The translations under genes were made by a program, and so were the position numbers. From Acidobacteriota bacterium (GTDB taxonomy: Bacteria; Acidobacteriota; Terriglobia; Acidiferrales; UBA7541), in contig QHZB01000191.1 in the NCBI GenBank assembly GCA_003224525.1, forward strand, positions 1 through 46,456: a stretch of DNA of 46,456 nt. The letters run 5' to 3'. Shown here piece after piece: positions 3,402 through 46,278 of this stretch; within the stretch, counting starts at the first letter, position 1, and every line of letters starts with the position of its first letter. The notes beneath the pieces were generated by a model that saw nothing but the letters and a program-made list of their open reading frames with translations, was not told the DNA's origin and made no database searches.

Positions 3402-3480
3402 GAGCCCGCAATATCGAGTAACAACGAAAGGCGCGACCGGCAATTTAGCGGCGTGCCTTTTTCATTTTTGCTCCGCCATG

Positions 3481-4479
3481 TCAGATCGCTGAACTCTGGG
3501 AGCCTCGCTGGAGGCGTGTCATGCCGCGATCGACGAGCATGACTGCGCCGATGACTAGGGTGGCGGAGAGGAGCACATTTAACGTGACCGCTTCGCCGGC
3601 GAAGAGCCAGCCAAATAGAACCGCGACGATGGGATTGACGTAAGTGTGGGTAGCCACGAGAGTGGGTGAATAGTGCTCGAGGAGCCAGTTGTAAGCGGTG
3701 AAAGCCACGACCGAGCCGAAAAGAATGAGATAGCCCAGCGCGAGCCACGAACGCAAGGAGACGGCCGCGAAGGAAAAACCGCGAGATTCTCCCACAACTG
3801 TTCCGGCGAGGAGCAGTTGCACGGAACCCGCCAGCAATGAAAGTGCGGACAAGAGAAGTGGATGCCCGGAGAGATGCGACTGCCGGGAATAGACAATCCC
3901 AACGGACCAGGAAAGCGCTCCCAACACGATTGCGAGCGAGCCGACAAACACGCCGGGGCCAGAATTCAGGGCGCTTCGGCCCATCAGGAGACCGACGCCT
4001 CCGAATCCCAGAAGAATTCCGGCCAGAAGCGTTGCGTTCAAGCCCCACTGCCGGGCGGCGATAGCCGTGAGCAGGAAAACCCAGATGGGCTCGCTGGCAA
4101 TGAGGAGAGAGGCAAGGCCCGACGGTACTTTTTGCTCCGCCCAGTGAAGCGTGCCGTGACCGATAAGAAAGAAAAATACGCCGATGATGATACTGGCGCG
4201 AACCTGCGCCCAGGTGGGTCGCAGGCGTTTAGCAAGGCACCCGACAAGGAGAATCGTGCCGGCTATCAAGTGCCGAAGGCCCGCGGTGTAGAGCGGAGGA
4301 ATCGTTTCCACGGCATAACGAATCGCGAGGTAGGTGGAACCCCAGATGAGGTAGATGGAGAGAAAGGAAAAAATGACGGTGGCGCGATGCAATCGCGGGC
4401 GTGCAGAGGTCATGACCGCCGGGACTTCTTCAATGACTGTCGCAGATTTCATGGGCATCGGTTCACCAAGGAGCGGCAA
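3481..4479 (-). CDS. EamA/DMT-family membrane transporter
   Basis: A 332-residue inner-membrane protein with about ten hydrophobic helices arranged as two EamA repeats. The first repeat begins at FLSIYLIWGSTYLAIRYA (near residue 38) and the second near VGSLAIVLGALSWSVGIV. The closing helices contain the family signature YVNPIVAVLFGWLFAGEAVT. Drug/metabolite transporters of this type (YedA, RhaT-like) usually export amino acids or small metabolites; the substrate cannot be read here. The start may be at any of three Met codons within the first ten residues. It stands alone, divergent from the CGNR regulator. Confidence 0.88.
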   Translation of the reverse strand: MPLLGEPMPMKSATVIEEVPAVMTSARPRLHRATVIFSFLSIYLIWGSTYLAIRYAVETIPPLYTAGLRHLIAGTILLVGCLAKRLRPTWAQVRASIIIGVFFFLIGHGTLHWAEQKVPSGLASLLIASEPIWVFLLTAIAARQWGLNATLLAGILLGFGGVGLLMGRSALNSGPGVFVGSLAIVLGALSWSVGIVYSRQSHLSGHPLLLSALSLLAGSVQLLLAGTVVGESRGFSFAAVSLRSWLALGYLILFGSVVAFTAYNWLLEHYSPTLVATHTYVNPIVAVLFGWLFAGEAVTLNVLLSATLVIGAVMLVDRGMTRLQRGSQSSAI

Positions 4480-4512
4480 AAGGCACCGCAGTACGGCGGC
4501 TCCTTACCCCTG

Positions 4513-4547
4513 TTGCTGTAATGCTCTATCGCTGCTATACTCATTAC
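4513..4547 (+). promoter_or_regulatory. Sigma-70 promoter with overlapping inverted repeat, upstream of CGNR gene
   Basis: TTGCTG (4513-4518) and TATACT (4536-4541) lie 17 bases apart, and a TG at 4533-4534 extends the -10. An inverted repeat GTAATG (4518-4523) / CATTAC (4542-4547) brackets the spacer, the -10 and the predicted start site, so a protein bound there would block polymerase. The next gene encodes a DNA-binding-type zinc-finger protein, which makes autoregulation plausible. Confidence 0.6.
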
Positions 4548-4598
4548 CGCAGCATAGGTGATTTGTTGTAACGAGTCAAGCTAATTTAAACCATTACA

Positions 4599-5180
4599 GT
4601 GAAAGCACTCCAGAATATTTTCCACGCGGCGGGGTTCGGCAAGGTCGCTCCCTGGGTGGATCTCGCCAACAGCCAGGAATGGAATGGCTTCGGGAAGCTC
4701 ACCGATCACCTTACGAACTCGCGGTGGCTCGCCACCTTCCTCAAGCATTGGAACCTTCATCCCCTTCCCTCGAAAAACGTTCCGCGGCGCAAACTGGTGC
4801 ATTTGCGCTTTCTGCTGCGCCGCGCCGCGGAAAAACTAGCGGCCGGGGGCTCTCTCGACCCCAGAGAGATTTCCAAGGTGAATCAGGTATTGAACGTACC
4901 GGTCTGGCAGAAGCTAGTACAGGACCAAAATGGAATCCGCGCCGAGATGGTTCCGGTGCGGAGCGATTGGAATTGGGTGATCGCCCGGATTGCCGCTTCG
5001 CTTGGAGAGATGCTGGCGAACCACGAGGTGGAGCGCATCAAAGTCTGCGCCAATTCCGATTGCCGCTGGGTTTTCCGCGATCCGACGAAAGCCAAGACGA
5101 AGCGCTGGTGCAACGACCGCACCTGCGGCAACCGCGCCCGGGTGCGCCGTGCCCGGGCCGCACAAAAGCAAAGAGCCTGA
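4599..5180 (+). CDS. CGNR zinc-finger protein (ABATE-type transcription regulator)
   Basis: A 193-residue protein with an N-terminal ABATE-like helical region (about residues 15-135) and a C-terminal CGNR zinc finger. The four likely zinc ligands are C150, C155, C171 and C176, in CANSDCRWVFRD and WCNDRTCGNR, followed by a very basic tail (RARVRRARAAQKQR). Such proteins are thought to be stress-related transcription regulators. The start is GTG; an in-frame stop lies 12 bases upstream, so no longer start is possible. There is no obvious ribosome site. A strong promoter with an inverted repeat precedes it. Confidence 0.85.
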   Translation: MKALQNIFHAAGFGKVAPWVDLANSQEWNGFGKLTDHLTNSRWLATFLKHWNLHPLPSKNVPRRKLVHLRFLLRRAAEKLAAGGSLDPREISKVNQVLNVPVWQKLVQDQNGIRAEMVPVRSDWNWVIARIAASLGEMLANHEVERIKVCANSDCRWVFRDPTKAKTKRWCNDRTCGNRARVRRARAAQKQRA

Positions 5181-5231
5181 CGAAGAAAGTTCCCTGTCGC
5201 CAGGCCCGCAGACGAATTTGTTGATCTGAAG

Positions 5232-5843
5232 TTAGGAATTTTTCCGGCGCACGAGCGCAAGAAACTCGTCCCGGGTCTGCTTATTGTGGCGGAACGCGCC
5301 GAGCATGGCGCTGGTGACGGCCTGGCCATGCTGCTTTTCCACCCCGCGCATCTGCATGCACAGATGGCGGGCTTCGATAATCACACCGACACCCTGGGGA
5401 GCGATTTTCTCCTCGATGGACTGGGCGATCTGGCTGGTCATGCGCTCCTGAATCTGCAAGCGACGCGCAAACATATTGACCACGCGAGCAATCTTGCTGA
5501 GCCCCAGAACACGCTTCTCCGGAAGATAGGCCACGTGAGCCTTCCCGAAGAATGGCAGCAGGTGATGTTCGCAGAGGCTGAAGAACTCGATGTCCTTCAC
5601 GATGACCATTTCGTCGTAGGCCACGCTGAACGTTGCGCCGTTCAATACATGATCCAAGTTCAAGTGGTAACCGCTGGTCAAATACTTCAGTGCTTTCTCG
5701 AAACGCTCCGGTGTCTTGCGCAGCCCTTCGCGATTGGGATCCTCTCCGATGATCTTTATGATTTCGCGCATGTGGCCGGCGATGGTGCGCGCGTCGAGGT
5801 CCTTGCGGTCATTCAGCAGAATTTCTTCCGTTGGCTTGTTCAC
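5232..5843 (-). CDS. folE: GTP cyclohydrolase I
   Basis: FolE converts GTP to 7,8-dihydroneopterin triphosphate, the first step to folate, pterins and queuosine-type compounds. The 203 residues contain the [15 protein letters not shown] entry motif, the zinc ligands C91 and H94 ([10 protein letters not shown]) and C162 (HLCMQMRGV), and the closing TRDEFLAL. The start is GTG, overlapping the previous stop as GTGA, with GAAGGGAA upstream. It is the last gene of a four-gene operon with two pterin synthase paralogues that act on its product. Confidence 0.96.
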
Positions 5844-6298
5844 GGGCGATTCCCTTCTAGGTTTTCCCCTGCGTATTCGAAGCTGTTGTTTCCGGTCTCT
5901 TGGACGCGGATACGTTCGAGCTTCGCCTCGGGGAAGAATTTCAAGCGCTGATAAATCTCAATGCACAAATTCTCGGTGGTGGGCACTTTCTCGCGAAAGG
6001 CGGCGACATCTTCGTTGAGCGACTTGCGATCGAATTCGTCGAGCACCTGGCGTTCGACGAAGGCGTCCAGATCGGCCAGATTCGCGATCATGCCCGTGGC
6101 CGGGTCAACGTCTCCCGACATGCTGACTTCCAACACGTAGTTATGGCCGTGGCCATAGGGATTGTTGCATTTCCCAAAGACACGGCAATTCTCCTCTTCA
6201 CTTAGATGCGGGCTATGCAGCCGGTGTGACGCCGAGAATCGATACCGGCGGCCGAGTTCGATCTTAAGGGCGTTGCTCATGGTTTTCCCGCCGCTCAT
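5840..6298 (-). CDS. 6-pyruvoyl-tetrahydropterin / 6-carboxytetrahydropterin synthase family, paralogue with altered catalytic site
   Basis: This 152-residue protein belongs to the PTPS/QueD T-fold family. The zinc ligands are present as H25 (SASH), H50 and H52 (PYGHGHNY). The nucleophile is C44 in FGKCNNP, the arrangement of animal-type PTPS. The catalytic Asp-His pair of the family (LDHKNL in animal PTPS) reads Asp90-Arg91 here (FDRKSLN), so the proton-relay His is missing. The TTEN and ETGNNS pterin-binding segments are kept. It overlaps both neighbours by four bases. It may do a modified reaction or act as a partner subunit; both are inferences. Confidence 0.88.
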
Positions 6299-6726
6299 GG
6301 TTTACCTGCCGCGCTGGCGCCGTTGCGGTAGCAATCGGCGAAGAGGTCGGGCGACTCGTACAGGCGCACGCGATGCAGCCGGCCTTGCGTGATTTTCGGC
6401 TCCAGCAATTGCCAGATTACGCGTGCAATGTTTTCACAGGTCGGAATCTGTCCGGCCAGTTCAGCGACCTCGTAATTGAGATGCCGATGATCCATGCGCC
6501 GCATGACTTCGCGTTCGAGAATCTCTTTTAGTTCTTTCAGGTCCAGGACCATGCCGGTCACCGGATCCGGTTCGCCCTCAACGGTTACTTCCAGCGTGTA
6601 ATTGTGCCCGTGGCCGTGAGGGTTATTGCACTTCCCAAAGATTCGACGGTTCTCCTCAGCCGAAAGATTCGGGTTGTGGTAGAGATGCGAGGCGGCAAAC
6701 TCGATTTTTCGCGTGAGAAGAACCAT
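6295..6726 (-). CDS. 6-pyruvoyl-tetrahydropterin / 6-carboxytetrahydropterin synthase
   Basis: A 143-residue PTPS/QueD family protein acting on dihydroneopterin triphosphate made by FolE. The site is intact: zinc ligands H14, H39 and H41, nucleophile C33 in FGKCNNPHGHGHNY, and catalytic Asp79-His80 in MDHRHLNYEV. The sequence around DPVTGMVLDLKELKEIL is very like animal PTPS, so tetrahydrobiopterin-type synthesis is as likely as 6-carboxytetrahydropterin. No queC, queE or sepiapterin reductase gene is nearby to decide. It forms an ATGA overlap with the paralogue downstream. Confidence 0.93.
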   Translation of the reverse strand: MVLLTRKIEFAASHLYHNPNLSAEENRRIFGKCNNPHGHGHNYTLEVTVEGEPDPVTGMVLDLKELKEILEREVMRRMDHRHLNYEVAELAGQIPTCENIARVIWQLLEPKITQGRLHRVRLYESPDLFADCYRNGASAAGKP

Positions 6727-6736
6727 GGGCGTTCGC

Positions 6737-7810
6737 TTATCTTGCCGATTGGGGAGCTCCGACGGAGTACTCCCGGCCTTTCCATTGGATTCTTCCCTTT
6801 ACATGGCCCCGGTAGGACGCCCAGAGCACAGCTACGTACAGCGCCACCGCGGGCACGTAATAAAAGATGAAGGAGAATGGGAAATGGTTACGAGCCAAGT
6901 CAAGACCGTAGCTGGTTTGGCGGGCGATCAGGAGCAAGACTCCCAGGAAAAGCAGAAAAGGATACTTCATCCCTGCGACCATCAGAAGGAGCGGAATCCA
7001 AGGGAGGCTTGACTCCATCTCGCGAAACACAGCCCATGGAGTGCCGCCCATCAAGCGATAGAGATTTTTCTTCCAGCCCTGCCACATCGCTTGGAACGAG
7101 CGGTACATGCGCACGCAAACAATGCCCTTGCCTGAGCCGAACCAGATGCGATGTCCCGCGGCCTTCACGCGCATGGCGAGGGCGACGTCCTCCAGGACCT
7201 CGCCGGCAAAAGTGGAATGGCCGCCGATGGCGTCGTACACATCGCGGCGCATCATCAGGAACTGGCCGTTCGCGGCCGCGGCGGGTGAGTTCGGATCATT
7301 CACCTTTTCATACGAGAAGCGCTTCGCCAGCCGCAGGTAGATGTAAGGAATCAGCGCTTTTTCATACCACGTCTCGGTGATCTGCTCGGGAGAAAATGAA
7401 ACCAGAGCAGCCTTGTGTTCCTGCGCAATTTGGAGTGCACGGGACGCGGAATTCCGCTCGTGTTCCGCGTCGGCATCGGTGAAAAGGAGCCAAGCACACT
7501 TGGCCTGTTGTACTCCGACCCAGAGGGCGTGGTTCTTCCCAACCCAGCCATCGGGCAATCCGCCGGCTTCCAGCGGGCGCAAGTTTGGAACTCTCCCCAT
7601 GAGATTTTTCACGACGCTAGCGGTCCCGTCCGTGGACTGATCATCCACCACCAGGATCTCGCCGATTTCCGGCTGGCTCGCCAAGGACGCAATGCACGCT
7701 GCAATAACCGCCTCCTCATTCCGGGCCGGAACGATAGCCGTGACGGAGCCCGAGGCCGCTGCCGGGGCGGCGGCGCCGATGGGCGGTAAGCGGTGGGCGT
7801 CGTTAGTCAT
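6737..7810 (-). CDS. Membrane-associated family 2 glycosyltransferase
   Basis: A 357-residue GT2 enzyme using the ATG at 7810 (MTNDAHRLPP); the open frame extends upstream but without family sequence. Motifs in order are VTAIVPARNEEAVI, the nucleotide-binding LVVDDQSTDGT, the metal-binding FTDADAEH, GEVLEDVALAMR with the catalytic acidic pair, and QGWKKN. Two to three C-terminal hydrophobic helices anchor it in the membrane. The layout resembles HpnB and CrtQ type enzymes of hopanoid or carotenoid pathways. It lies 10 bases upstream of the pterin synthase genes, so it is probably co-transcribed with folE; the acceptor is unknown. Confidence 0.85.
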   Translation of the reverse strand: MTNDAHRLPPIGAAAPAAASGSVTAIVPARNEEAVIAACIASLASQPEIGEILVVDDQSTDGTASVVKNLMGRVPNLRPLEAGGLPDGWVGKNHALWVGVQQAKCAWLLFTDADAEHERNSASRALQIAQEHKAALVSFSPEQITETWYEKALIPYIYLRLAKRFSYEKVNDPNSPAAAANGQFLMMRRDVYDAIGGHSTFAGEVLEDVALAMRVKAAGHRIWFGSGKGIVCVRMYRSFQAMWQGWKKNLYRLMGGTPWAVFREMESSLPWIPLLLMVAGMKYPFLLFLGVLLLIARQTSYGLDLARNHFPFSFIFYYVPAVALYVAVLWASYRGHVKGRIQWKGREYSVGAPQSAR

Positions 7811-41734: not shown

Positions 41735-42151
41735 TCACTTCGGAGGAGATGTCTTGCTCGCGCTCGGGGAGAGCGGCTCAATGCTGCGCACAGTAATGAT
41801 GTCGGTCTTCGGGTCAAGGGTCCCAACGATTCTTACCTTCAGCCCGGCCCACTGTTCCGCCAGAGCCTGCGTATCCAGCTTATAGACCTTGTCCGAAGTC
41901 TGCAGCACGAATCTTCCGCCACGCTCTTTCACGCAATAGCGCGCGCAGTCTGCGTTCGTTTTCACTTCGGGTTTCATCTCGATCATTTCCTTGTGCGATT
42001 TACTGAGAGAATGAACGTTGAGCGCGCACTGCGTGTCTGCAATTTCACCTCTGAATTTCTTTTCATCTCCGCCGCCAGCCGGAGGATAGCCCGCCATCAC
42101 CCAAGCCAAGGCCGCGGCACCCAAGATCGATCGGGCTCTTCTAGTTCCCAT
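41735..42151 (-). CDS. Exported DUF5818-like small protein
   Basis: A 138-residue protein with a signal peptide (MGTRRARSILGAAALAWVMAG). The mature part has FRGEIADTQCALNVHSL, ADCARYCVKERGGRFVLQ and LKVRIVGTLDPKTDIITVRSIEPL. This pattern suggests a small OB-like beta barrel with three conserved Cys residues and a His, as in DUF5818 proteins. No activity is known. It is the last gene of the porin/cytochrome/CuA operon, 47 bases after the cupredoxin gene. Confidence 0.7.
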   Translation of the reverse strand: MGTRRARSILGAAALAWVMAGYPPAGGGDEKKFRGEIADTQCALNVHSLSKSHKEMIEMKPEVKTNADCARYCVKERGGRFVLQTSDKVYKLDTQALAEQWAGLKVRIVGTLDPKTDIITVRSIEPLSPSASKTSPPK

Positions 42152-42198
42152 TTGTCCCTCACTGGTGCAAACATTTGCGAATTGGATTTGTCTTCAAA

Positions 42199-42645
42199 TC
42201 AGGGCAATACCACGAATCTCATGTTCATTCCTTCATGGTCCTGGCTGCAGATCACGGTGCAAACAACGAGGTATTCTCCAGGCTCGCTCGGCGCCGCCAC
42301 GGTGAACTCCTGGGTCCCGGGCTTCAGGAGGAAATCCCAGTCCGGAACTGGTTTCCGGTCTTTTGCGCGCAGCAGCGAAAAACCGTGTATCGAGCCGTCT
42401 CGGTTTAGATTCTTTGCCTTCTTGGCCGTAATCCGCAAGTTAATTTGCTCGCCCGTTTTCACAGTTATGACCGGCCGCTTTTGGTCCTTAATCTTGTAGC
42501 GGCTGTCATGGTCCGCCAGGATCTCAATCACCCGAGCCCGCGACTGCGTGCTCTGACCCCAACCGCACATCGATGACACCGCCGTGACTGCCACCAGCAG
42601 TCGCAGAACTATTGCCGCTCCCCTCCATCGCCCTAAACTGATCAT
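42199..42645 (-). CDS. Exported cupredoxin with a CuA-type copper site
   Basis: A 148-residue protein with a signal peptide (about residues 1-30) and one cupredoxin domain. The motif C129-x3-C133-x3-H137-x2-M140 (CTVICSQDHEGM) plus an upstream H87 (GSIHGFSL) is the full ligand set of the binuclear CuA site of cytochrome oxidase subunit II and nitrous oxide reductase. There is no oxidase membrane part. The protein is therefore probably a soluble or lipid-associated electron carrier or a copper chaperone. It overlaps the cytochrome c gene start by four bases. Confidence 0.88.
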   Translation of the reverse strand: MISLGRWRGAAIVLRLLVAVTAVSSMCGWGQSTQSRARVIEILADHDSRYKIKDQKRPVITVKTGEQINLRITAKKAKNLNRDGSIHGFSLLRAKDRKPVPDWDFLLKPGTQEFTVAAPSEPGEYLVVCTVICSQDHEGMNMRFVVLP

Positions 42646-43001
42646 TGGGTCATGTAGCGCAGTATGAGTCGCATGTCTTCATCGGTGATCATGGCCCGGA
42701 CCCTCATGTGGCGTATGGCGGTGGCCATGACTCGCGGCGGAAACTTGTGCGGAGTTTGATGGCAGCGCCCGCAATTGGTGCGGAATCTCTTTTCGCCTTC
42801 CAACCGCTGGGCACCATTCTCGGCTCCATCCGCCGCCGACTTGGCCATTGCGGACGGAGGTGCCGCTGGCATTCCTTGTGTCGGCGCAGGCGCCTCGGCA
42901 CTCGACGAGGCAGTTGAATTCGCACGCTCCTGCGCGATCGCCGAAAAGGTCAGACCTGCCGTCACGCCAACCATGCAAAGCAGGATGTAACGCCACTTCA
43001 T
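42642..43001 (-). CDS. Small exported mono-haem cytochrome c
   Basis: A 119-residue protein with a signal peptide (cleavage near AIAQ, residue 24) and a Ser/Ala/Pro-rich linker (about 25-60). One haem motif is present, C77-G-R-C80-H81 (NCGRCHQTPHKFPPR). Met99 or Met104 could be the sixth ligand. It ends in a helix (DEDMRLILRYM) typical of small cytochromes. The start is MKWRYILL at 43001, in a TGATG overlap with the porin stop. It could pass electrons to or from the CuA protein downstream. Confidence 0.85.
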   Translation of the reverse strand: MKWRYILLCMVGVTAGLTFSAIAQERANSTASSSAEAPAPTQGMPAAPPSAMAKSAADGAENGAQRLEGEKRFRTNCGRCHQTPHKFPPRVMATAIRHMRVRAMITDEDMRLILRYMTQ

Positions 43002-44152
43002 CACTCGCTCCTTGCGTGTCCCAGAGGGACCACGAATCTGTAGGTAAGACTCATCGTCCAAACGTTTTTATTCCCATCCGTGCTGAATTGCCGGCCGTAG
43101 CTGGAACTCGCCTTCAGTCCGTCGATGAAGTAGTAGTTCAGCCCGAATTCGAACTGTTTTGTGTTCATCGGCAGAAGCGCATCGCTGGCGTTTTCTCCCG
43201 CAAAAAACTGCTGCATGCGCGCCACGACCTGCGCCCGGCGAAGTTCGTTCTGCAGGAACGGAACCTGGCTCAAACGATAGGCCGCTTCCACCCAGTAGCC
43301 TCTTCCCACGATGGAACGAGCATATTCGGATCGGATGTCGAGCGGCAGGATTGGTGGTTGCCACAAGGCATGGAAGCCAAAAGCATTCGACCGCTCGTCC
43401 TGGAGCCCATGCTGAAAAGATCCGCCGATTTCCAGACGTGCTGCGGGAACAAAGATTCCCAGGCGTCCTCCCGCGAATCGATCAGAGTTCACGGGACTCG
43501 CGGTCGAGAGAACTGAAAAATAGACCGCGTAGTTGATGTTGAACTTCGGGTCCGCCCTGAAGCCGCCGCGCAACATCACCCCAGTGCTGGCATTGCTGGG
43601 CCCTATTCCGATCGGCAGGATCAGTGGATCCGACTGCAAGTTCCGGATCCAGACGGGGTACAGCCTTTCATTAAAGATGCCAAACGGCGTCAGAAATCGC
43701 CCCACCGTCACCGTTATGTACGGATTGGCGATGAAATCCAGTTGGACGTATTCGAATTCCTTTGCAACCGTCCCGTGAAACGCGCTTCTCCCGGGGAGTT
43801 GCACCATGTCCGTCTCGAATGTCGCCCGCGTTTCGAAGATCCATCGGCCTCCGATCGGGACCAGAACAAGAGGCGTGACAATGGGGTGGAGGTGTGGTTC
43901 CCCACCGTCAAACGTGGTAATGAAACCCGTGCTCCCTGTTAGCAAAGGAACCGGCTTCACTTCTTCGTTTGGCGGCGCTTGGGCCCCCGCTGGGAATGCA
44001 AAGAGAATCGAGAGCAGAACTGCAAGCAGAACAGCTGAGCCGCACAACAAGAATGGGGGTGTGCTTCTGTGGGGTAAGCTTCCGCCGCGTCCATGGCAGA
44101 TTCGCAACCTCGGAATCAGATTCGCGGTGGCGGCTTGCACGTCAGGCACCAA
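43001..44152 (-). CDS. Outer-membrane beta-barrel (porin-like) protein
   Basis: A 383-residue protein with a late signal peptide (hydrophobic AVLLAVLLSILFAFPAGA, about residues 40-57) and a mature part of alternating hydrophobic strands. Examples are WIFETRATFETDMVQ, FEYVQLDFIANPYITVTVGRFLTPFGIFNER, and the final NVWTMSLTYRFVVPLG. VGRFLTPFG is reminiscent of phosphate-selective porin O/P proteins. It is the first gene of an operon with a cytochrome c and a CuA protein. The start looks like TTG at 44152 with AGAGG seven bases upstream, and GTG at 44149 directly follows; the exact N-terminus is uncertain. Confidence 0.75.
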   Translation of the reverse strand: MVPDVQAATANLIPRLRICHGRGGSLPHRSTPPFLLCGSAVLLAVLLSILFAFPAGAQAPPNEEVKPVPLLTGSTGFITTFDGGEPHLHPIVTPLVLVPIGGRWIFETRATFETDMVQLPGRSAFHGTVAKEFEYVQLDFIANPYITVTVGRFLTPFGIFNERLYPVWIRNLQSDPLILPIGIGPSNASTGVMLRGGFRADPKFNINYAVYFSVLSTASPVNSDRFAGGRLGIFVPAARLEIGGSFQHGLQDERSNAFGFHALWQPPILPLDIRSEYARSIVGRGYWVEAAYRLSQVPFLQNELRRAQVVARMQQFFAGENASDALLPMNTKQFEFGLNYYFIDGLKASSSYGRQFSTDGNKNVWTMSLTYRFVVPLGHARSE

Positions 44153-44587: not shown

Positions 44588-45520
44588 ATGCGCATTAGAG
44601 TCCTCGGCTCCGCAGCCGGAGGCGGCTTTCCCCAATGGAATTGTTCGTGTCCGAACTGTAGCAGCCTCCGAGGCGGCAGCGTCAAAGCTCGTCCGCGCAC
44701 CCAGGCTCAGGTGGCTGTCTCTTCCGGCCCGTCAAGCTGGTTTCTTCTGAACGCCTCTCCCGATCTCCGCCAGCAAATCCTTGCGACTCCCGAGCTGTCA
44801 GTCACGTCCTCCTCGCCTGGCTCGCCTATCTCCACCATCCTCCTCACCAGCGCCGAGGTGGATTGCGTGATGGGCTTGCTTCACCTTCGCGAGTTTCATC
44901 CGCTGCACATCTATTCGACTCTATCGGTGCGACGTATCCTCACGGAAGAGAACAGCCTCTTCCGCGTCCTGACGCGCTCGAACCCCCCCGTGCGGTGGGA
45001 CACGCTGCCCCTCGATCGCCTCATTCCTCTCGTTGCGCCATCTTCCCCCAGCGCAAAGGACGGCTTCTTCTGCAAAGCCGTGCCTCTTCTCGGTGGTTTC
45101 CCGGATTACGTGAGTGATTTACTGAAAGGAAGCTTTCCTCCGGAAGAGGCAGTCATCGGCCTCCAACTCGTCCACAAAGAAAAGAGATTTTTATACGCCC
45201 CCAGCGTCTCCGGACTCGGAGAAGACTGGCAACGCTCCGTCGATGAAAGTGACTTGGCTCTTCTCGATGGCACCTTCTGGAAAGATGATGAGTTGATCCA
45301 AGCCAAGCGCAGCCGCAGAACGGCACGCGATATGGGACATCTTCCGCTCTCGGGCGAGCGCGGCTTGCTGAAGCGGCCGTTCCGTCTCGGAAAAACCAAG
45401 CGCGTCATCATCCACATCAACAATACAAACCCGGTGTTAAACGAAGAGAGTCCAGAGCATCGCGCTGTGCGTGAAGCCGGTTGGGAAATCGCCTATGATG
45501 GGATGGAGTTCAACCTGTGA
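44588..45520 (+). CDS. pqqB: PQQ biosynthesis protein PqqB
   Basis: A 310-residue metallo-beta-lactamase-fold protein that hydroxylates the PqqA-derived intermediate. It has the PqqB start MRIRVLGSAAGGGFPQWNCSCPNC with the Cys cluster that binds structural zinc, NASPDLRQQI, VDCVMGLLHLREF, and the C-terminal HINNTNPVLNEESPEHRAV and GWEIAYDGMEFNL. It overlaps pqqC by four bases (GTGA). Confidence 0.96.
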   Translation: MRIRVLGSAAGGGFPQWNCSCPNCSSLRGGSVKARPRTQAQVAVSSGPSSWFLLNASPDLRQQILATPELSVTSSSPGSPISTILLTSAEVDCVMGLLHLREFHPLHIYSTLSVRRILTEENSLFRVLTRSNPPVRWDTLPLDRLIPLVAPSSPSAKDGFFCKAVPLLGGFPDYVSDLLKGSFPPEEAVIGLQLVHKEKRFLYAPSVSGLGEDWQRSVDESDLALLDGTFWKDDELIQAKRSRRTARDMGHLPLSGERGLLKRPFRLGKTKRVIIHINNTNPVLNEESPEHRAVREAGWEIAYDGMEFNL

Positions 45521-46278
45521 CCCCCTCCGTGAACCACGAGGTCGAAAAGCCGTTGTTCTCCGAAGCCCAGTTCGTCGCTGGCTTTCATGCCATCGGAGAT
45601 GAGCGCTACCATCACAAGCATCCGTTTCACTTGCTCATGCACGAAGGCCGCCTCACGCGCGGCCAGGTTCAAGCCTGGGCTCTCAATCGCTACTACTATC
45701 AGAGCCGTATCCCCATCAAAGACGCGGCCATTCTCGCGCGTAGCGACGATCCAGCGTTTCGTCTCGCCTGGCGCAAGCGCATCCTCGATCACGATGGCGA
45801 CGGCACCAAGCCCGGCGGCATTGAAAAGTGGCTGCGTCTCGTGGAAGCTACAGGCTTGTCGCGCGAACACGCGCTCCGCGGTGACGGCATTCTTCCCGCC
45901 ACGCGTTTTGCAGTCCAAGCTTACGTCGATTTCGTATCCACGCGCTCGCACCTCGAAGCCGTGGCCTCTTCCCTGACCGAACTCTTCTCGCGCAAACTCA
46001 TCGCTCTCCGCATGGACCGCATGCGCCAGCACTATCCCTGGCTCTCCGGCGGTCTGGATTATTTCACCGGCCGTCTCACGCAGGCTCCCGAGGACTCCGA
46101 GTTCGCTCTGGCGTGGGTCGTGAAACACGCGCGCACCCGCACGGAACAGGATTTGGCGCTCGCCGCGTTGCGCGCCAAGTGCGACATCCTCTGGGCGCAG
46201 CTTGACGCCCTCTATTTTTCCTACGTCAATCCCGGATGGCCGCCTCCGGGCGCTTTCCAGCCCGCAAAGGAATCGTGA
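45517..46278 (+). CDS. pqqC: PQQ synthase PqqC
   Basis: PqqC performs the final eight-electron oxidation and ring closure to PQQ without a metal or cofactor. The 253 residues have YHHKHPFHLLMHEGRL, QAWALNRYYYQSRIPIKDAAILAR, DHDGDG, and the C-terminal helices ending near YVNPGWPP. The start is GTG, overlapping the pqqB stop. pqqD and pqqE do not follow; the next gene is unrelated. Confidence 0.96.
   Translation: MTPSVNHEVEKPLFSEAQFVAGFHAIGDERYHHKHPFHLLMHEGRLTRGQVQAWALNRYYYQSRIPIKDAAILARSDDPAFRLAWRKRILDHDGDGTKPGGIEKWLRLVEATGLSREHALRGDGILPATRFAVQAYVDFVSTRSHLEAVASSLTELFSRKLIALRMDRMRQHYPWLSGGLDYFTGRLTQAPEDSEFALAWVVKHARTRTEQDLALAALRAKCDILWAQLDALYFSYVNPGWPPPGAFQPAKES

Follow-up and report, generated by a model that had tools for sequence, protein, structure and literature searches.

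Acidobacteriota are abundant in soil. In one of their genomes, four minus-strand genes at 41735–44152 of a 46,456-nucleotide contig (QHZB01000191.1; the window, which is one entire contig) encode an outer-membrane porin, a small mono-haem cytochrome c, a free-standing cupredoxin with CuA ligands and a DUF5818 protein, and they raise the question of what such a cassette does in the cell envelope. An earlier note on this DNA, written from its letters alone, had placed the four genes there, with the first three coupled, and had read them as an undescribed envelope redox module; coordinates and junctions were confirmed, as were the barrel, the mono-haem cytochrome and the free cupredoxin with complete CuA ligands, by models and alignments. 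Here, we report that the core of the gene set is a porin and small-cytochrome pair, and we propose, giving the proposal an even chance, that the set is a split, Cyc2-like outer-membrane electron-transfer unit with its own periplasmic CuA carrier. Gene linkage and co-inheritance, the complete CuA ligand set and the predicted CuA fold are the computed part of this proposal.

A free-standing CuA protein

The CuA protein is encoded by a 148-amino-acid (aa) open reading frame (ORF) with an export signal and one cupredoxin domain. Its ligands are H87, C129, C133, H137 and M140 (C-x3-C-x3-H-x2-M plus an upstream His), and the complete set is kept in 44 of 46 rows of CuA homologues. A profile of 36 homologues (set A1; L075, L076 and L077 left out of 39) was searched against the PDB and matched two Thermus-based CuA structures, the engineered 6pty (1.8e-8) and the native 2cua (5.8e-8), scores that the distant rows L065, L073 and L074 within the profile may raise. 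In both printed alignments the His, both Cys, the second His and the Met stood in register with the CuA domains of 6pty and 2cua. As a single sequence, the window protein gave weak PDB matches, with COX2 entries at E values of at least 0.27 only. An AlphaFold model, which the earlier note had named as a check, had a CuA-like fold (pLDDT 89.9); its top structural match was the CuA domain 6ptt (Z 11.9, rmsd 1.7), with 2cua at Z 11.6 and NosZ at about 11. By ligands and modelled fold, the window protein is a predicted CuA cupredoxin of the COX2/NosZ type. One relative (L013:7959-8405) is 72% identical to it and has Arg for the first CuA Cys, through true decay or a metagenome assembly error.

Pfam and NCBIfam family cut-offs were applied to the window proteins. 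The products of the porin, cytochrome and CuA genes all fell under Pfam cut-offs, and DUF5818 alone of the four rose above. The CuA protein scored 13.9 bits against Cupredoxin_1 (cut-off 27); in NCBIfam it matched NosZ at E 1.1e-4, far under the cut-off, and CoxB at E 0.002 (17.5 bits against a cut-off of 147.7). A misplaced oxidase subunit is ruled out by the separate COX1 and COX2 loci of the window's genome, in which the CuA protein has one close copy. COX1 was found neither on the window's contig nor, in 11 genomes searched, within 16 kb of the cassette (nearest G297); with the 148-aa ORF and the CoxB score, this argues against cytochrome c oxidase subunit II.

Conservation of the gene set

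The porin stop and the cytochrome ATG share one base (TGATG), the cytochrome stop and the CuA start overlap by four bases (ATGA), and 47 bases separate the CuA and DUF5818 genes. A terminator-like site was looked for on the minus strand between the four genes and none was found. Given the tight spacing, the four probably form a single transcript. Judged from sequence, chance is excluded as the origin of the arrangement, because the same-order set recurs in 18 of 95 genomes of the window's order and in G257 (family f2), which has porin, cytochrome and CuA genes in that order and a partial DUF5818 match. The same gene order was thus found in other Acidobacteriota, where the earlier note had suggested looking for it.

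Within those 95 genomes, CuA homologues occur in 26 and the porin in 22. Three of the 18 four-gene genomes have one incomplete or frameshifted gene (L054, a porin fragment; L079, DUF5818 at a contig edge; L013, DUF5818 in two frames). The cytochrome lies beside the porin in 21 of the 22 porin-bearing genomes, and the 22nd holds a decayed porin only. G234 and G218, of family f63 in the same phylum, have porin, cytochrome and CuA genes, with DUF5818 not beside them.

The porin is present in 29 genomes of a 396-genome phylum sample, directly adjoined by the small cytochrome in 27, counting a two-haem version in G350. The other two, G049 and G352, have an ORF inserted between porin and an intact cytochrome; in G352 (L145, about 3450-6800) a TAG interrupts the porin frame, the ORF at 4211-5614 intervenes, and cytochrome, CuA and second cytochrome are intact. 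CuA lies near the pair in 14 of the 29 (G000, G218, G234, G257, G195, G036, G147, G297, G394, G382, G352, G049, G281 and G241), on the divergent side in G281 and G241. The remaining 15 comprise 14 family f2 genomes and G350.

The earlier note had taken CuA homologues without the other genes as telling against a shared module. Such homologues do occur, which counts against it, yet they lie beside NrfD-like genes, some with a DmsE-family decahaem cytochrome. The reverse comparison favours the module: the 14 f2 genomes with the pair and no adjacent CuA all hold a standalone CuA (122-163 aa, E below 1e-38), in nine of them 6.5-13.7 kb from the porin. Across family f2, a strong standalone CuA was found in 25/25 porin genomes versus 3/17 listed without porin (at least 17 lack it; Fisher p 1.3e-8, a value that ignores relatedness). 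A first single-sequence CuA scan of the phylum had found 10/396 genomes only, because a second CuA lineage was too distant; it was later recovered with profile A3. Both A1 and A3 include L073 and L074, whose genomes lack the porin, and A3 also includes sequences from 8 of the 25 f2 porin genomes. In the f2 branch a larger mono-haem cytochrome c follows CuA (L104, L105, L111-L116), and it still does so where CuA has relocated, in seven of nine regions read.

Two CuA lineages

The CuA tree spans 119 columns and takes in five COX2 rows from 12 loci. It places the window type among relatives from NrfD clusters and the f2 type among oxidase CuA domains; the branch that parts the two sides is long (on one midpoint side, 1.5 changes per column; support 100/99). 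The porin tree resolves one clade of 16 window-type porins (97/91) and another of 26 f2-type porins (100/99); the f63 and G488 porins belong to neither. Each porin clade pairs with one CuA type, which for the 14 f2 genomes with distant CuA was assigned by profile score, not by tree. G257, a long branch within f2, has window-type porin and CuA; G422 and G448 (family f1) have f2-type porin and CuA. As far as sequence can tell, the porin, cytochrome and CuA parts move as a group, and two deeply divergent kinds of CuA protein have served the pair; one of the two would then have been recruited or swapped in. We take this service by two deep lineages as the best indication that function depends on a CuA carrier.

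CuA relatives without porin and cytochrome (L058-L060, L062-L064, L066, L067 and L069) adjoin NrfD-like, 4Fe-4S and multihaem cytochrome genes (L059 annotated). In L064 (7583-15248), a decahaem cytochrome assigned to the DmsE family (TIGR03508, 226.8 bits, cut-off 192.2) adjoins a protein of 972 residues that weakly matches GSU2204, and the clusters of both, the latter of 935-972 aa, recur in L062, L063 and L066 with an NrfD-like protein. This neighbourhood suggests outer-membrane electron traffic. In L062 the CuA gene is duplicated in tandem, and one copy has Gln for the Met ligand.

Polysaccharide-export genes (SLBB/Wza-like, Wzz, flippase, WecG or Wzy) lie near the porin-cytochrome pair or CuA in 14 of 22 f2-type loci examined (L104, L145, L146, L149, L151, L153 and L183-L190), where genes of the B12-type radical SAM and NTP_transf_5 kinds often occur nearby as well. 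No neighbours of these three kinds were found at window-type loci.

The porin and the small cytochrome

The porin model (pLDDT 62.9) has 16 strands, the first from residue 70, and places a signal helix at residues 35-52, which leaves the TTG start at 44152 uncertain. All 50 listed structural matches are porins, the best of them 16-strand barrels such as OmpF/OmpC and OprP/OprO (Z 20-22); a Cyc2 structure was not among these 50, which is uninformative either way. The window porin scored 15.8 bits against Porin_O_P (PF07396; cut-off 20.9), and weak matches to that family (E up to 0.01) were seen in 12 of 18 porin members. The porin profile (A2, 18 of 21 rows; L015 with an open start, L053 with an ambiguous base and the fragment L054 left out) gave chance matches only against PDB sequences. 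The porins at L070:1694-2938 (G234) and L072:1320-2546 (G218) have a His/Glu-rich loop with repeated HAEEG that is likely metal-binding. A second porin match in G218 (C7) is apparently spurious, its open frame resembling MutL.

The window cytochrome consists of a signal peptide, an Ala/Pro/Ser-rich linker and a haem domain with CGRCH and an HMRVRA motif, and it scored 14.9 bits against Cytochrome_CBB3 (cut-off 27). Its one CxxCH (C77, C80, H81) is followed by HM (H98, M99), a conserved pair. Set A4 comprised 36 of 46 rows, leaving out the near-copies L118, L121, L122, L123, L129, L130 and L071, and L044, L054 and L061 for an ambiguous base, a doubtful start or no adjacent porin. All 36 rows have a single CxxCH with exactly 38 residues C-terminal to it. 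The f2 rows were chosen by the pattern HMR.RA, so the motif's presence in 36/36 is partly by construction. The L105 cytochrome, read separately, has QM where others have HM, and for that reason Met is likelier than His as the sixth (axial) haem ligand.

The main rival explanation bears on this pair: the porin would admit a solute (nitrite, alcohol or organic anion), and the cytochrome and CuA protein would be soluble carriers for a periplasmic enzyme or oxidase, with no electron crossing the outer membrane. The porin's best fold matches are indeed ordinary solute porins, and 34 of the 36 cytochromes have no lipobox-like pattern. Some flanks would also suit it, since the G234 cassette lies near nrfHA-like genes (with two-component and AhpC/TSA-like genes) and L047 near UbiA-type (ctaB-like) and ctaA-like genes. 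Against it, the porin gene keeps company with the small-cytochrome gene (27 of 29 adjacent), and among the loci read no enzyme gene was kept beside the cassette across lineages. We regard it as unlikely, if the most serious of the alternatives.

Proposed mechanism

The pair has the ingredients of Cyc2 as two proteins, together with a CuA partner, and a split Cyc2-like unit with a CuA relay is therefore proposed. By analogy, we infer docking, electron transfer, its direction and a substrate as follows. Tethered by a flexible N-terminal linker, the small haem domain would dock where the 16-stranded barrel opens to the periplasm, as the corresponding domain fused into Cyc2 supposedly does. One electron would pass between the haem and a small redox partner that is extracellular or diffuses through the pore (Fe(II), a reduced humic, some other metal or a small organic molecule), and the CuA protein would ferry that electron across the periplasm to a c-type cytochrome and on to a haem-copper oxidase. 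In the sister lineages, the second, larger cytochrome c beside CuA could supply the c-type cytochrome step. Inward electron flow seems likelier than outward.

Several observations weigh against the split-unit proposal. The ligand set is broken in L013 (first Cys to Arg) and in one of the two L062 copies (Met to Gln). Non-CuA cupredoxins match the modelled fold as well as CuA domains do (4hcg, Z 11.8; nitrosocyanin, Z 11.4), so that ligands, not fold, decide the CuA assignment. G350, with a porin and two-haem cytochrome, was searched for a standalone CuA and none was found; conversely, besides the three strong cases, two more of the 17 listed porin-less f2 genomes have a weaker standalone CuA. 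The porin model is moderate only and its matches are ordinary solute porins, the polysaccharide-export setting of many f2 loci is by itself no pointer to electron transfer, and the last cassette gene varies between lineages. No substrate, oxidase or inner-membrane partner gene linked to the cassette was found in the window.

If the proposal is true, common Acidobacteriota of soil would be trading electrons with donors or acceptors outside the cell, and doing so with no multihaem cytochrome, and CuA would gain a physiological role beyond oxidases, nitrous oxide reductase and PmoD. Published searches for genes of extracellular electron transfer, in PMC6344600 and PMC5566968, look for multihaem cytochromes or Cyc2, and would miss this gene set. 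No description of the set, which the earlier note had called undescribed, was found in the open-licence PMC literature searched, and it is conserved as a set. That a two-gene, one-haem porin-cytochrome conduit with a dedicated free CuA partner is a class not described before can be put forward only tentatively, at somewhat less than even chances. The gene set offers small, expressible proteins for direct test.

The DUF5818 gene

The DUF5818 protein scored 35.3 bits against PF19135 (cut-off 27) and carries a conserved Cys/His pattern (D-x-QCA..NVHS..SH....DC-x-x-YC). The earlier note had counted it in the operon. It is present, and in order, in the 18 four-gene genomes, and that much stood; core membership is ruled out, because the gene is missing from other branches and belongs to a multi-copy family with three matches in the window's genome, one under the cut-off. 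No paper on DUF5818 was found in the open-licence PMC literature. In the window's lineage only, it may, on weak grounds, be an accessory metal-site protein. At L013:8409-8871 the gene is split across two frames, by true decay or a metagenome assembly error.

Conserved Cys and His in DUF5818, with the His/Glu-rich loop of the G234 and G218 porins, would fit a copper acquisition or delivery module, in which copper would enter through the porin and be bound and passed to oxidases by the cupredoxin and the DUF5818 protein. PmoD is a CuA-forming copper protein required for copper-dependent growth (PMC6189053). The loop is confined to two genomes of one genus, DUF5818 is missing in other branches, and a haem protein always stands alongside the porin. 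A canonical CuA site is, moreover, better suited to electron transfer than to copper exchange, and we consider the copper module improbable.

Neighbouring genes

The window's features are collected in Table 1. Upstream of mraZ is a promoter-like TTGACA-16-TATCAT at 41575-41548 (-), with 11/12 matches; one such match was found versus 1.5 expected by chance. The division genes 3' of the cassette (mraZ) may have their own start, as this site suggests at a level not above chance. Because the window is an entire contig, the PQQ locus is truncated at its right end.

Table 1. Genes of the cassette and its divergent neighbours in the window
Feature	Coordinates	Strand	Evidence
Outer-membrane porin, predicted 16 beta-strands	43001..44152	-	Model, structural matches; start codon uncertain
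Small mono-haem cytochrome c	42642..43001	-	Alignments, motif and length counts
Single-domain exported CuA cupredoxin (predicted)	42199..42645	-	Ligand alignment, model, fold match
DUF5818 protein, lineage-specific fourth gene	41735..42151	-	Pfam PF19135, alignment
pqqB, divergent neighbour, outside module	44588..45520	+	TIGR02108, 329 bits
pqqC, neighbour close to contig end, outside module	45517..46278	+	TIGR02111, 334 bits

The flanks of four-gene cassettes vary, with pqqBC and/or mraZ in the window's genus. The earlier note had suggested a connection to PQQ, by which periplasmic dehydrogenases that use PQQ would feed electrons to the module. In its favour, pqqBC lie divergently next to the cassette in the window, as they do in five of the six other window-type cassettes of the genus. 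The connection was not supported. Near the cassette, pqqB is found in 6/7 genus cassettes and 0/12 other loci, which rules out a general link; neither pqqB nor pqqC was found in any of those 12 (two with less than 1.5 kb of upstream flank). In G418 (L107, C181, about 5600-5920), porin remnants with in-frame stops lie between mraZ-like and open pqqB/pqqC-like frames; by its sequence this is a decayed cassette, lost at the same site, where the porin decayed while the pqqB and pqqC frames stayed open. We hold the PQQ explanation to be very improbable.

Comparison with known systems

Cyc2 is an Fe(II) oxidase in which cytochrome and porin are fused. It carries one haem and a predicted 16-strand barrel resembling phosphate porins, with the haem domain thought to plug the periplasmic mouth, and has the motifs AXPXFAR[Q/K][T/Y] upstream and PXL downstream of CXXCH, according to PMC8406198. 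Like Cyc2, the present set has a small one-haem domain; its barrel may also be of the 16-stranded, phosphate-porin-like kind (model pLDDT 62.9). Unlike Cyc2, its porin and cytochrome are separate genes overlapping by one base, its haem-domain motif is HMRVRA, and it has a dedicated CuA partner. A true Cyc2 is ruled out, because the genes are unfused and each Cyc2 motif occurs in 0/36 cytochrome rows.

Rusticyanin does not have the two-copper CuA ligand set, unlike the cassette's cupredoxin. The Acidithiobacillus rus operon (Cyc2, Cyc1, rusticyanin and aa3 oxidase; PMC10654088) likewise groups an outer-membrane cytochrome-porin, a c-type cytochrome and a cupredoxin, but the cassette here holds no oxidase genes. 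As in MtrAB, PioAB, MtoAB and other porin-cytochrome complexes (PCC), a barrel and a periplasmic cytochrome are co-encoded; with one haem (a single CxxCH) rather than many and 16 predicted strands rather than 26, the set does not belong to the multihaem Mtr/Pio/Mto/PCC complexes. The distant CuA relatives at L062-L064 and L066 do adjoin cytochromes of the DmsE-family decahaem cluster.

Among CuA proteins, the cassette's cupredoxin is predicted to share its fold and all five side-chain ligands with the CuA domains of COX2 and nitrous oxide reductase, but it is a free-standing exported domain. In being a free-standing CuA-type cupredoxin it resembles PmoD/AmoD, in which CuA is formed across a homodimer by a Cx7MxHxnC ligand set (PMC6189053). 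It is not of that family: the window protein (CTVICSQDHEGM) has the canonical ligand set in one chain, versus Cx7MxHxnC across two.

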